DNA of 39,711 nucleotides, from positions 1 through 39,711 of IMG/VR virus record IMGVR_UViG_3300038496_000083. The stretch is one strand, 5' to 3'. The notes beneath the pieces are model-generated. The model was not told the origin of the DNA. It did not search any database and worked only from the letters and a program-made list of their open reading frames with translations. The DNA comes from a virus. Shown one piece after another: positions 4,401 through 12,356 of the stretch; positions within the stretch are counted from its first letter, which is position 1, and each line of letters opens with the position of its first letter. Position numbers and translations under genes: made by a program.

Positions 4401-6047
4401 ATGGCAAAATTTGATTGGCTGAACAAGGACAGCAGGACATTCCTTGAACGTGGATACCTCTTAGAAGGGGTTACTCCAGAAGAAAGAATTAAAGAAATAG
4501 CTGATGAGGCTGAGAGAATCCTTGGTATTAGGGGTTTTTCAAATAAGTTCTACGACTACATGTCAAGGGGTTGGTTTTCATTATCATCCCCAGTATGGGC
4601 TAACTTTGGGCTAGAGCGTGGGTTACCCATCTCTTGCTTTGGTAGTTACATTGGTGATAGTGTTGAATCGATTCTAGGAACAGCCAAGGAGGTTGGGATG
4701 ATGTCCAAGTACGGAGGTGGAACCTCAGCATACTTTGGTCACATCAGAGGGAGAGGTTCTAAGATTACTGATAATGGGGAGAGTAATGGTTCCTATCCAT
4801 TTGCTAGGATATTCGACACCCTTATCGATGTAGTATCTCAGGGTTCCACAAGACGTGGATACATGGCAGGTTACATTGACATAGAACATCCAGATATTCT
4901 GGAATGGTTAGATGCATTGAAGGAGGGGAATCCTATCCAGTTAATGTACTACGGAGTTTGTGTAGGTGATGACTGGTTACAGGAGATGAAGGATGGAGAC
5001 CAAGCAAAGCGTGAGACATGGGCTAAGGTGATAGAGGCAAGAGGTGAAGTAGGTGTACCTTACATCATGTTCAAGGACACAGTAAATAGAAATACTGTGG
5101 ATGTCTACAGGAACGAAGGTCGTACAATCTATGCATCAAACCTCTGTAGTGAGATATGCTTACCATCCAATGAGGAAGAGTCATTTGTATGCTGCCTATC
5201 CTCAATGAACCTATTACATTACGATGAGTGGAAGGATACGGATGCGGTTGAAATCCTTACAATATTCCTAGATGCTGTGATGACTGAGTTCATTAGGAAG
5301 ACAGAAGGGGATAAGGATATGGTTAGAGCACATACATTCGCTAAGAATCACCGTGCCCTAGGTCTTGGAGTTCTTGGATGGCATGATTACCTGCAGAGTA
5401 AGAATATAGCTTTTGACTCGTTCGATGCGATGCAGCATAATGTAAGAATCCACAAGGATATCAAGGAGAAGGCATATATAGCCTCCAGAGACATGGCTAA
5501 GTGGTTTGGAGAGCCACCTGTTTTAAAAGGATATGGGAGACGTAATACTACGCTACTTGCCATTGCACCAACAAAGAGTAGTTCGTTTATCCTAGGGCAG
5601 GTGAGTCAGACCATTCAGCCTCATGAGAGTAATTATTACATCAGGGATGCAGCCAAGATTAAGGTTACCGTTAAAAACCCTTTCCTTACTAGAGAACTTG
5701 CTCGTATAGGTAAGGATACTAGGGAGGTTTGGAAATCCATAAAGGAGAACAACGGTTCCGTACAGCATCTTGACTTTCTTAGTGACCACTTGAAGAAGGT
5801 GTATGAGACATCCTTTGAGATTAGTCAGTTGTCAATCATTCAACAGGCTGCTCAGAGGCAGAAGTACATATGTCAGTCTCAGTCATTGAATGTAATGATA
5901 CATCCTAAGACTTCAATCAAGGAGATTAATGAGTTGCTATTGACAGCACATCAACTTGGAGTGAAGACTTTGTATTACCAGAATAACCTTAACGCAGCGC
6001 AGGAGTTTAAAAGAAACCTCTTGACGTGTGCAAGTTGTGAATCTTAA
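4401..6047 (+). CDS. nrdA: Ribonucleotide reductase class I, alpha subunit (short)
   Basis: Catalytic subunit of 548 residues. Visible are the redox Cys79 (PISCFGSY), the radical-site set N247-x-C249-x-E251 in SNLCSEI, the partner Cys at 264/265 (VCCLSS), the tyrosine pair in LYYQNNL that relays the radical from NrdB, and a C-terminal CASCES tail whose Cys pair is re-reduced by thioredoxin or glutaredoxin. It is much shorter than the usual 750 residues: the N-terminal ATP-cone activity domain is absent, so dATP shut-off through that domain is not expected. It reduces NDPs to dNDPs in the cytoplasm. The start is two bases after the nrdB stop. Confidence 0.95.
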   Translation: MAKFDWLNKDSRTFLERGYLLEGVTPEERIKEIADEAERILGIRGFSNKFYDYMSRGWFSLSSPVWANFGLERGLPISCFGSYIGDSVESILGTAKEVGMMSKYGGGTSAYFGHIRGRGSKITDNGESNGSYPFARIFDTLIDVVSQGSTRRGYMAGYIDIEHPDILEWLDALKEGNPIQLMYYGVCVGDDWLQEMKDGDQAKRETWAKVIEARGEVGVPYIMFKDTVNRNTVDVYRNEGRTIYASNLCSEICLPSNEEESFVCCLSSMNLLHYDEWKDTDAVEILTIFLDAVMTEFIRKTEGDKDMVRAHTFAKNHRALGLGVLGWHDYLQSKNIAFDSFDAMQHNVRIHKDIKEKAYIASRDMAKWFGEPPVLKGYGRRNTTLLAIAPTKSSSFILGQVSQTIQPHESNYYIRDAAKIKVTVKNPFLTRELARIGKDTREVWKSIKENNGSVQHLDFLSDHLKKVYETSFEISQLSIIQQAAQRQKYICQSQSLNVMIHPKTSIKEINELLLTAHQLGVKTLYYQNNLNAAQEFKRNLLTCASCES

Positions 6048-10961: not shown

Positions 10962-11034
10962 GGGGTAGTACCGTGTTGGCTAGGTAATCTACTTTGCAAG
11001 TAGGTTTTCGTGGGTTCGATTCCCATCTATTCCA
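10962..11034 (+). tRNA. tRNA-Ala (anticodon UGC)
   Basis: The acceptor GGGGTAG pairs with CTATTCC (two G-U). The anticodon arm TCTAC-TTTGCAA-GTAGG shows UGC, and the T arm GTGGG-TTCGATT-CCCAT is intact, with discriminator A. No CCA is encoded. The 73-base length is normal and the D arm is weak but holds GG. It reads GCA codons. It starts four bases after a terminator, so its transcript must come from readthrough or antitermination. Confidence 0.88.
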
Positions 11035-11035
11035 C

Positions 11036-11066
11036 AAATCGAGGATTCGATTCCCAACGGGTACTA
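11036..11066 (+). other. tRNA 3'-half-like remnant
   Basis: Directly after tRNA-Ala, GAGGATTCGATTCCC resembles a T arm and GGTACTA resembles an acceptor 3' strand. GGTACTA is an exact complement of TAGTACC at 10966-10972. No anticodon arm belongs to it. It looks like a decayed or duplicated tRNA end rather than a gene. Confidence 0.35.
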
Positions 11067-11078
11067 AAAAGTAATGTT

Positions 11079-11366
11079 ATGAGCAGAACTAGAAGAAAAG
11101 ATAAAGAGGGTAATGTTTTCTGGGATGGAAGACGCACAAGAGAAATAAATCATCGCTGTAGATGTGCTTGGTGTACAGGGATAGACAAGAAAACCTTAGA
11201 GGAAAAGATAGCTGACAAGGATATGGAACTGCAGCTTAAAAGATGGTACGGAGATGAGCAGTACCAAGAGGAATGGTGGGAGTTGACATCAAGTGAATGG
11301 GAAAGAAGAGATAAAGAATTTATCCAAGAACAACTTAATTGGATAGAATATAGGAATATAGCATAA
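11079..11366 (+). CDS. Hypothetical protein with CxCxxC cluster, 95 aa
   Basis: The frame is open from 11010, but the upstream part runs through the tRNA-Ala T arm. ATG 11079 (MSRTRRKDKEGN) is chosen as it follows the tRNA and gives a normal basic start. The 95-residue product has H-R-C-R-C-A-W-C (residues 25-32) as a possible zinc site and a highly charged helical C-terminus rich in W, E and K. I do not recognise a family. The last 15 bases and the stop codon overlap the start of tRNA-Ile, so one base string serves both genes. Confidence 0.65.
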   Translation: MSRTRRKDKEGNVFWDGRRTREINHRCRCAWCTGIDKKTLEEKIADKDMELQLKRWYGDEQYQEEWWELTSSEWERRDKEFIQEQLNWIEYRNIA

Positions 11367-11425
11367 TTGGTCAATGCACACGGCTGATACCTGTGAGACT
11401 GGGGGTTCGAATCTCTCTATTCCTA
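11352..11425 (+). tRNA. tRNA-Ile (anticodon GAU)
   Basis: Acceptor AGGAATA pairs fully with TATTCCT. The D arm is GCAT-AATTGGTCA-ATGC. The anticodon arm CACGG-CTGATAC-CTGTG shows GAU, and the T arm is GGGGG-TTCGAAT-CTCTC (two G-U). Length is 74, with discriminator A and no CCA. It overlaps the 3' end of the preceding CDS by 15 bases and lies five bases before tRNA-Gly. Confidence 0.9.
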
Positions 11426-11430
11426 CAAAT

Positions 11431-11503
11431 GCGTGATTGGTGTTAATGGTTAGCATAAGACACTTCCAATGTCAAGGTATGGGTTCGAATCCTGTATTGC
11501 GCA
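11431..11503 (+). tRNA. tRNA-Gly (anticodon UCC)
   Basis: Acceptor GCGTGAT pairs with ATTGCGC (two wobble pairs). The anticodon loop CTTCCAA shows UCC in an AGACA/TGTCA stem with one mismatch at its base. The T arm is ATGGG-TTCGAAT-CCTGT. Length is 73, with no CCA. It reads GGA codons, common in this window. A consensus promoter begins six bases after it. Confidence 0.9.
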
Positions 11504-11508
11504 CAAAA

Positions 11509-11540
11509 TTTGGTTCTTTGACATTTTATTTGTATCTTTG
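11509..11540 (+). promoter_or_regulatory. Consensus promoter giving a near-leaderless mRNA
   Basis: TTTG at 11509-11512, a 20-bp spacer and TATCTTTG at 11533-11540 match the Bacteroidota consensus exactly. The next ATG is at 11545, only four bases after the box, about where transcription should start. The message would have little or no 5' leader. Confidence 0.85.
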
Positions 11541-11544
11541 CGAT

Positions 11545-12024
11545 ATGAAGATACTAAGAACAATAGTTCTCGTAGCTGTACTGGTGTTTGCAGCTATATT
11601 ATGGGGAACAAAGGATGCACCAATGATATCACAAAGCGCATTCGCACTATCACCAAACAACCATTGGTACGTCCTTATGCACTTGTCAATTATGTTGACG
11701 TTTGTATTAGATGCTATCTTCGGGAGAAGAATATGGGGATGGGTAGTAGTCGCTGCTTCGGCAGGAACGTTAGCGTTCAACATGTACGACTTCCCTTTAA
11801 CGCATAATCTGTTTACTGCAGGTATTATGGCATCAGCAGTATTCAATTTGATTTATTATGCAACACCTCACACAAGGGTATTTGCAATCCTTAACTCGGT
11901 GGTCGGTACTACAGTATTTGTACTGGCATTGACAACGAATGGAATCCATGTATTCTTTGCCGAAGTTGTCGCAGAACTTGCAATTGGTGTCGGAATGGCG
12001 AGAAGGATTTGGATTAAAAAGTAA
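11545..12024 (+). CDS. Multi-pass membrane protein, 159 aa
   Basis: The frame is open from 11437, but that start lies inside tRNA-Gly. ATG 11545, just after a consensus -7 box, gives MKILRTIVLVAVL and is chosen. About five hydrophobic segments are visible: residues 5-20, about 43-60, 64-80, 88-106 and 112-148 (possibly two helices). The charged C-terminal tail is RRIWIKK. I do not recognise a family. With its own promoter between tRNA genes it behaves like an independently acquired accessory gene; superinfection exclusion or lysis control are possible but unsupported by motifs. The stop lies three bases before tRNA-Met. Confidence 0.75.
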   Translation: MKILRTIVLVAVLVFAAILWGTKDAPMISQSAFALSPNNHWYVLMHLSIMLTFVLDAIFGRRIWGWVVVAASAGTLAFNMYDFPLTHNLFTAGIMASAVFNLIYYATPHTRVFAILNSVVGTTVFVLALTTNGIHVFFAEVVAELAIGVGMARRIWIKK

Positions 12025-12027
12025 CAT

Positions 12028-12097
12028 TGCGAAGAGAATTGGTATTCAATCGGGTCTCATAAGCCTGACTTCGTGGATTCGATTTCCACCTTCGCTA
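12028..12097 (+). tRNA. tRNA-Met (anticodon CAU), short D arm
   Basis: GCGAAG pairs with CTTCGC for six pairs, with a U-U mismatch at the 1-72 position. The anticodon arm CGGGT-CTCATAA-GCCTG shows CAU. The T arm GTGGA-TTCGATT-TCCAC is perfect and the discriminator is A. At 70 bases, the D arm is about three bases short. A 1-72 mismatch is a hallmark of bacterial initiators, but the GGG/CCC anticodon stem is not exact; an Ile-lysidine tRNA is another option. Confidence 0.75.
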
Positions 12098-12104
12098 CAA
12101 AACA

Positions 12105-12190
12105 CCATTCGGCTTAGGGAAGTCACAAGCTGCATTCTGGTAACAGAAATAACCCTTAACCTAAGTGACTAGTCAGGAGGTGACCTGACA
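12105..12190 (+). ncRNA. Structured RNA candidate between tRNAs
   Basis: No open gene. CTTAGG (12113-12118) pairs with CCTAAG (12160-12165), while AGTCAC (12121-12126) pairs with GTGACT (12165-12170). The helices interleave as in a pseudoknot. TGACTAGTCA (12166-12175) is a perfect palindrome, and GTCAGG (12172-12177) with CCTGAC (12184-12189) makes a hairpin. These can exchange with each other. It may be a processing or termination structure, a small RNA, or a recombination site beside tRNA genes. Confidence 0.45.
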
Positions 12191-12193
12191 TAT

Positions 12194-12273
12194 ACCTGTG
12201 TAACCGTGCCGTCCTTCTAAGTTGGTAAGCGTAATTGGAGTTGCAAATACTGGTTCGAATCCAGTCACAGGTT
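12194..12273 (+). tRNA. Non-canonical tRNA-like gene (possibly Arg, UCU)
   Basis: The ends are those of a real tRNA: ACCTGTG pairs perfectly with CACAGGT, and the T arm ACTGG-TTCGAAT-CCAGT is perfect. The 46 bases between are odd. A plausible anticodon arm CCGTC-CTTCTAA-GTTGG (UCU, one T-T mismatch) comes right after the acceptor. A D-arm-like GCGTAATTGGAGTTGC, close to the D arm of tRNA-Ile here, lies after it. An alternative reading uses CTTCTAAGTTGGTAAG as D arm and leaves a poor anticodon loop with TGG. Length is 80 bases. The identity is not settled. Confidence 0.5.
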
Positions 12274-12279
12274 CAACAT

Positions 12280-12356
12280 CGCCTCGTATCGGCTTTCACT
12301 CATAATGAATAGAAACCGTAATCGGTCACATGTGGGTTCGATTCCCACCGAGGCAA
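12280..12356 (+). tRNA. Non-canonical tRNA-like gene with CAU loop
   Basis: GCCTCG pairs with CGAGGC, with a C-A mismatch at 1-72. The T arm GTGGG-TTCGATT-CCCAC is perfect. A textbook CTCATAA anticodon loop sits in a TTCA/TGAA stem at 12295-12309, only seven bases after the acceptor, leaving no room for a D arm. After it comes ACCG-TAAT-CGGT and a GTAATCGGTCAC segment resembling a D arm. The layout parallels the gene at 12194. The last base abuts the stop codon of the giant - strand gene at 12357. Confidence 0.55.

Follow-up and report, generated by a model that had tools for sequence, protein, structure and literature searches.

Phage tRNA-like genes with isoleucine and arginine anticodons and a D-loop placed after the anticodon arm

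Two neighbouring genes with an unusual arm order

Can a transfer RNA (tRNA) serve translation with its parts in an order other than that of the cloverleaf? The question is raised by two adjacent tRNA-like genes in the IMG/VR virus record IMGVR_UViG_3300038496_000083, a 39.7-kb phage contig related to Maribacter phage Panino and analysed over its whole length (positions 1 to 39,711, hereafter the window). In gene 1 (12194..12273) and gene 2 (12280..12356), both on the + strand, as are their parts and the other window tRNAs located below, an earlier note made from the sequence alone had seen the anticodon arm placed before a D-arm-like segment, and had proposed internally permuted tRNAs, decoys for host nucleases, or mis-folded, fast-evolving tRNAs. 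The odd order is real in both neighbours. The acceptor stems have 7/7 (gene 1) and 6/7 (gene 2) pairs, and the T arms (12249..12265 with loop TTCGAAT, and 12332..12348 with loop TTCGATT) are perfect, with 5/5 pairs each. The anticodon stems start about 8 bases past the acceptor, and their loops, CTTCTAA and CTCATAA, 13 (gene 1) and 12 (gene 2) bases past it; the segments TAATTGGA (gene 1, 12232..12239) and TAATCGGT (gene 2, 12319..12326) follow, between the anticodon arm and the T arm. Both genes very probably encode working translational tRNAs of the Arg and Ile types, with a second chain topology in which the D region is permuted and the elbow preserved.

ARAGORN called neither gene, although it called four other tRNAs in the window (10962-12098), directly upstream of genes 1 and 2, and a whole-window scan with the Rfam tRNA model matched neither. 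In a short scan, the same model gave 32.4 bits for gene 1 and 29.5 bits for gene 2 (cut-off 29); both alignments deleted the D arm and placed an insertion of about 20 nt in the variable region. An ordinary cloverleaf, which the earlier note had suggested looking for with tRNA finders and covariance folding, was rejected on the negative ARAGORN result. A descriptor of the unusual layout matched only genes 1 and 2 in the window, and nothing in 100 simulated 40-kb windows.

Relatives were collected with four pattern scans of IMG/VR (89, 113, at least 119 and 111 stretches), in all of which the anticodon was left partly or wholly free. A descriptor that made no use of the D helix then gave 268 distinct sequences on 248 loci; the member counts of the family (272, 268, 202 and 91) are counts among the matches listed. 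Because parts of the motif were imposed by the scan patterns, the frequencies of those letters are meaningless, and evidence was drawn from unconstrained positions only. The main class comprises 202 sequences without gaps (76 nt plus the discriminator), and a nonredundant set of 91 gapless sequences with less than 82% identity formed alignment A1.

A conserved helix around the anticodon arm

RNAalifold, given no structure, folded the 91 sequences into a 7-bp acceptor stem, a 3-bp helix (columns 11-13 with 37-39) around a 4-bp anticodon stem, and a T arm, the D-loop segment falling between the enclosing helix and the T arm. In total, 98.7% of cells were paired in this structure, compared to 33-45% in slid structures. 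All cells (100%) of the enclosing helix, hereafter the D helix, were paired, and compensatory changes occurred at its three pairs in 31, 35 and 20 sequences, so that homologues with compensatory changes, named in the earlier note as possible support, were found for every pair of this helix. In the mutual information computed on the 202 sequences, its pairs ranked alongside those of the acceptor and anticodon stems. Comparison of the members thereby established both the layout and the D helix.

The members share the 7-bp acceptor, the 7-nt anticodon loop with U33, and the 5-bp T arm with a TTCRA loop (the T loop being partly pattern-imposed) with canonical tRNAs, but have no D arm between the acceptor and the anticodon arm. 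The earlier note needs one correction on its D-arm-like segment: this is a D-loop that has no conserved hairpin of its own, and the short stem encloses the anticodon arm instead. Likewise, the suggested permutation holds for the D-loop, which is relocated, and not for a complete D arm.

Gene 2 is a typical family member. It scored 86.9 bits (E 6.6e-23) with model R1, a score to be read with its own sequence being part of the R1 training set. Its D helix pairs CGG (12290..12292) with CCG (12316-12318) around the anticodon arm TTCA-CTCATAA-TGAA (12295..12309; anticodon CAT, 12301-12303), whose 4-bp stem is paired in 99.5% of cells in A1. Similar copies were found by BLASTN in Streptomyces phages and in the crAss-like Kehishuvirus tikkala, while in Panino the site is occupied by a canonical tRNA(CAT) between near-identical flanks.

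Gene 1, with anticodon TCT (12216-12218), is best described as a divergent member (R1 33.3 bits, E 2.5e-7). Its anticodon arm CCGTC-CTTCTAA-GTTGG (12209..12225) has a 5-bp stem with one U-U mismatch, common to Panino, and its D helix pairs CGT (12205..12207) with GCG (12229-12231). BLASTN homologues were found in Panino and in the Pseudomonas phages ventosus, UAVern, Bitten, PAK_P2 and KoPa-4; the Pseudomonas homologues reached 44-51 bits with R1, and all 5 bp of their anticodon stem are intact. In the alignment of this subfamily (A2), the CG...CG core of the D helix is invariant and therefore yields no covariation; the third pair is U-G in gene 1, A-U in L158 and an A-C mismatch in Panino.

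In two further members (L117:660-750 and L120:545-635), an insertion after the anticodon stem offers a possible additional helix (GGAC...GTCC) across the D-loop.

The relocated D-loop and the tertiary core

The motif T-A-R-Y-Y-G-G-N that follows the enclosing helix reads as A14 R15 Y16 Y17 G18 G19 N20 (A14 A15 U16 U17 G18 G19 A20 in gene 1, A14 A15 U16 C17 G18 G19 U20 in gene 2). If the segment is a D-loop, its R15 is expected to pair with Y48, immediately 5' of the T stem. The members collected first had A15 and U48 throughout, and C48 was predicted in advance for versions with G15. When G15 was then scanned for, with C or T allowed at position 48 and the anticodon free, the pair was G-C in 71 cases and G-T in 4, and the loci from the scan with position 48 free were A-U in 71/71. 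Among the 91 nonredundant sequences, the pair is A-U in 63, G-C in 27 and G-U in one, i.e. the A-U/G-C exchange of a Levitt pair, and comparison thus established 15-48 as well. In gene 1, A15 pairs with U48 at 12248; in gene 2, U48 lies at 12331. The bases for G18-U55 and G19-C56 are present in the members, but are invariant and pattern-imposed.

Amino acid identity

Of 272 well-fitting candidates, 268 carry one of seven anticodons, TAT, GAT and CAT (Ile) or TCT, CCT, ACG and TCG (Arg); the four sporadic fits with other anticodons were treated as false positives. In the scans that did not fix base 20, all Arg members have A there (92/92) and 133/137 Ile members have T, which matches the canonical tRNAs of these loci (A in 147/152 for Arg, T in 49/59 for Ile). 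A20 is, together with C35, the main determinant for Escherichia coli ArgRS (PMC9976931). All 172 Ile members have A as discriminator, and the Arg members have G (53), A (31) or T (12), which mostly agrees with A73 in tRNA-Ile and A/G73 in tRNA-Arg. A37 is found in all Ile members, and 83/268 sequences encode CCA behind the discriminator. The Arg members thus have the features of tRNA-Arg (A20 with C35, discriminator A/G), and the Ile members those of tRNA-Ile (GAT/TAT or CAT, A37, A73), with a lysidine predicted for CAT. The restriction to Ile and Arg, and the link of base 20 and the discriminator to the anticodon, are established by this comparison.

C4-G69, an isoleucine determinant, is present in 14/17 CAT members, which favours tRNA-Ile2; AUA would then be readable only after lysidine modification. 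Ten genomes, looked at for a possible reliance of the host on its chromosomal member, all have TilS. Gene 2 would accordingly be of the Ile2 type, as U20, A73 and C4-G69 suggest. The Arg identity of gene 1 is supported by TCT, homology, and A20, as in all Arg members; its discriminator is U73, which departs from the minor discriminator feature of tRNA-Arg (A/G), and no CCA is encoded.

Genomic context and distribution

The family is found mostly on phage contigs, and the isolates include Pseudomonas, Streptomyces, Vibrio, Microbacterium, Serratia and Bacteroides phages and a bajarodcaudovirus. In the fetched DNA, a canonical tRNA lies within 500 bp of 168/268 members and within 100 bp of 109/268. 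Members tend to replace the canonical tRNA of the same anticodon: a canonical tRNA with the same anticodon was also present in 2/21 cases against 26/56 for TCT (p = 0.002), with p = 0.005 for GAT, 0.007 for ACG and 0.06 for TAT, these p values being indicative only, because related phages are not independent. At one locus (L306), there are 20 canonical tRNAs, none of them for Ile, and a permuted tRNA-Ile(TAT) directly after tRNA-Phe. The array context and the exclusion of canonical isoacceptors are likewise established by comparison across loci.

Outside phages, a scan of 84,980 prokaryote genomes with a strict A15 pattern gave 10 stretches, and an R1 search of the Bacteroidota family of one such genome gave a strong match in 10/196 genomes (including L495, L497 and L500-L502). 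Chromosomal matches are mostly Ile(TAT), in tRNA arrays between tRNA-Asn and tRNA-Lys, with a relaxase gene near the L503 member and an RNA ligase gene near the L504 member. The family is thus mainly viral, and also present on bacterial chromosomes, probably together with mobile tRNA arrays.

Phage copies are nearly always without annotation, and ARAGORN called 0/268 members with the right extent. In Streptomyces phage EGole (L008:1487-1563), a permuted tRNA-Ile(GAT) is labelled tRNA-Leu(UUA), with the loop misread, and the site is blank in related phages. No earlier description of permuted or D-loop-relocated phage tRNAs was found in the open-access literature; preprints and most subscription papers were outside this search, and priority is uncertain. 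The family is apparently widespread and undescribed.

Several loci have additional features. In Microbacterium phage A3Wally, an RNA ligase gene (L421:6219-7301) directly follows a tRNA array containing an unannotated permuted tRNA-Arg(ACG). A contig of an Acholeplasmatales metagenome-assembled genome, probably a phage (L305, site 4755-4826), has a tRNA array, a transfer-messenger RNA and a tRNA with a CTA anticodon (Pyl according to ARAGORN) adjoining a permuted tRNA-Ile(TAT). A Mesorhizobium contig has a permuted tRNA-Arg(TCT) with encoded CCA (L302:2737-2813), and its genes at least 1.7 kb away match the LPG synthase, Ppx/GppA and FtsJ families.

Proposed structure and function, and alternative explanations

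Of the explanations in the earlier note, the internally permuted tRNA accords best with the conserved order, the covarying enclosing helix, the 15-48 pair, A20 in the relocated D-loop, and the occurrence in many unrelated phages. The chain would run from the acceptor strand through U8-A9, three D-helix bases, the anticodon arm and a short linker (usually GAAA) to the other three D-helix bases, the D-loop A14-R15-Y16-Y17-G18-G19-N20, a linker ending in Y48, the T arm, the second acceptor strand and the discriminator. The D helix would stack on the anticodon stem to form one long arm, and the D-loop would fold back as a linker to make the elbow contacts 8-14, 15-48, 18-55 and 19-56, preserving the L shape with altered connectivity. 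The predicted transcripts would be processed by RNase P and receive CCA as other tRNAs do. Gene 1 would be charged with arginine by the host ArgRS and read AGA/AGG; in gene 2, C34 would be converted to lysidine by the host TilS before charging with isoleucine by IleRS, allowing it to read AUA. On the ribosome, both may serve codons heavily used by the phage: in the window, AGA and AGG make up 290/429 Arg codons, and AUA 200/671 Ile codons. It is likely, more broadly, that this is a second natural topology of functional tRNA, that phages from several bacterial phyla, and some bacterial chromosomes, employ it for Ile and Arg, and that it has escaped annotation because tRNA finders take the order of the cloverleaf for granted. 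Speculatively, the fold might help in escaping host nucleases that attack the ordinary tRNA body, the sole hint being the RNA ligase genes near two arrays (A3Wally and L504).

Several points weigh against the permuted-tRNA interpretation. The consensus fold is not the single-sequence minimum free energy fold for most members tried, and their z-scores are modest (-1.2 to -2.2). Gene 1 stays at about 33 bits with both models, and there is little covariation to support its D helix. TAA/TAG..GG and GGTTC were imposed by the scan patterns, as was GAAA in two of them, so that unlike members may have been missed. The isoleucine charging proposed for CAT members draws on three features only.

A role outside translation, as mimics of tRNA or as decoys for regulators or tRNA nucleases of the host (the earlier note had named mimics that act as nuclease decoys), would suit phage genes whose fold is unlike that of an ordinary tRNA and which sometimes lie near RNA ligase genes (A3Wally, L504). 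This is improbable, since a decoy would need none of the following in combination: seven anticodons that are all Ile or Arg, matching identity bases at position 20 and the discriminator, encoded CCA, and replacement of the canonical isoacceptor. The suggestion of mis-folded, fast-evolving tRNAs also fits less well with the restriction to Ile and Arg, the matching base 20 and discriminator, and the replaced canonical tRNA.

Still more improbable are D-armless tRNAs in ordinary order, with a long class II-like variable arm and an accidental likeness to a D-loop. The Rfam model does align both genes in a D-armless manner, and gene 2 has a local hairpin (ACCG-TAAT-CGGT) resembling a variable arm. 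Across the nonredundant set, however, this hairpin is paired in 37.7% of cells, has all three pairs in 14% of sequences and shows no covariation, against 100% pairing of the enclosing D helix, and a class II arm was rejected accordingly. A mitochondrial-type D-armless tRNA is also at odds with the relocated segment, which has A14, R15, G18G19 and N20, with 15-48 covariation and the A20/U20 identity.

Decaying pseudogenes, to which the U-U mismatch and missing CCA of gene 1 and the failure of standard finders on both genes might point, were rejected on the conservation and covariation of 268 distinct members, of which the nonredundant 91 are still 98.7% paired and contain hundreds of compensatory changes, and on the sharing of the gene 1 mismatch with Panino. 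A permuted or split gene with an RNA that becomes an ordinary cloverleaf through splicing or circularisation, as permuted tRNA genes of algae and archaea might suggest, has a negligible probability: the acceptor strands are at the gene ends, often with CCA right behind them, and nothing is left over that could complete a D arm.

Relation to known tRNAs

In the circularly permuted tRNA genes of algae and archaea, the halves are swapped, the mature ends are internal, and the product is processed to an ordinary cloverleaf; the likeness is in the word 'permuted' only, as in the present family the mature RNA itself would be rearranged. Canonical bacterial tRNA-Arg and tRNA-Ile (RF00005) share with the family the acceptor, anticodon and T arms, U8, A14, 15-48, G18G19, A20/C35 (Arg), A73 (Ile) and the location in arrays, but the family has its D-loop after the anticodon arm and a 3-bp D helix around it. 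D-armless mitochondrial tRNAs and mini-HisT (PMC11551756) also have the anticodon arm a few bases past the acceptor; D-armless tRNAs lose the D-T elbow, whereas the family keeps its D-loop at a new place. Armless tRNAs have been described as confined to mitochondria, and the structural diversity of cytosolic tRNAs as one of arm size alone (PMC11551756). Selenocysteine tRNA, allo-tRNAs and other non-canonical tRNAs deviate from the standard cloverleaf in the length or loss of arms, whereas here the order of arms is changed; the terms 'phage' and 'permuted' are absent from the review of non-canonical tRNAs (PMC7609411).

Non-mitochondrial tRNAs have been described as having one chain order. From the comparison presented here, the cloverleaf seems not to be the sole tRNA layout used by bacterial ribosomes, and a natural alternative keeping the tertiary core would mean that its order is not required. 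If so, tRNA folding and evolution could be tested by topology, a new engineering scaffold would be available, and holes in phage tRNA sets would be filled; should the fold resist host tRNA nucleases, it would also be linked to anti-phage defence.

Other features of the window

The canonical tRNA-Ala(TGC), tRNA-Ile(GAT) and tRNA-Gly(TCC) (10962..11504; ARAGORN and Rfam) form one array with genes 1 and 2, and gene 2 adjoins the end of a 2590-aa open reading frame on the opposite strand. In a tRNA(CAT) with ordinary arm order (12028..12098; ARAGORN, Rfam 28.0 bits), the D arm is very short, with about 4 bp and a 4-nt loop; the gene has 84% identity to a tRNA-Met of Bacillus phage BSP38. The noncoding stretch between this tRNA and gene 1 (12099-12193) contains the nested complements CTTAGG/CCTAAG, AGTCAC/GTGACT and TTCTG-GTAA-CAGAA, as well as a GTCAGG/CCTGAC hairpin, and might form a pseudoknot, although its folding z is only -1.2.
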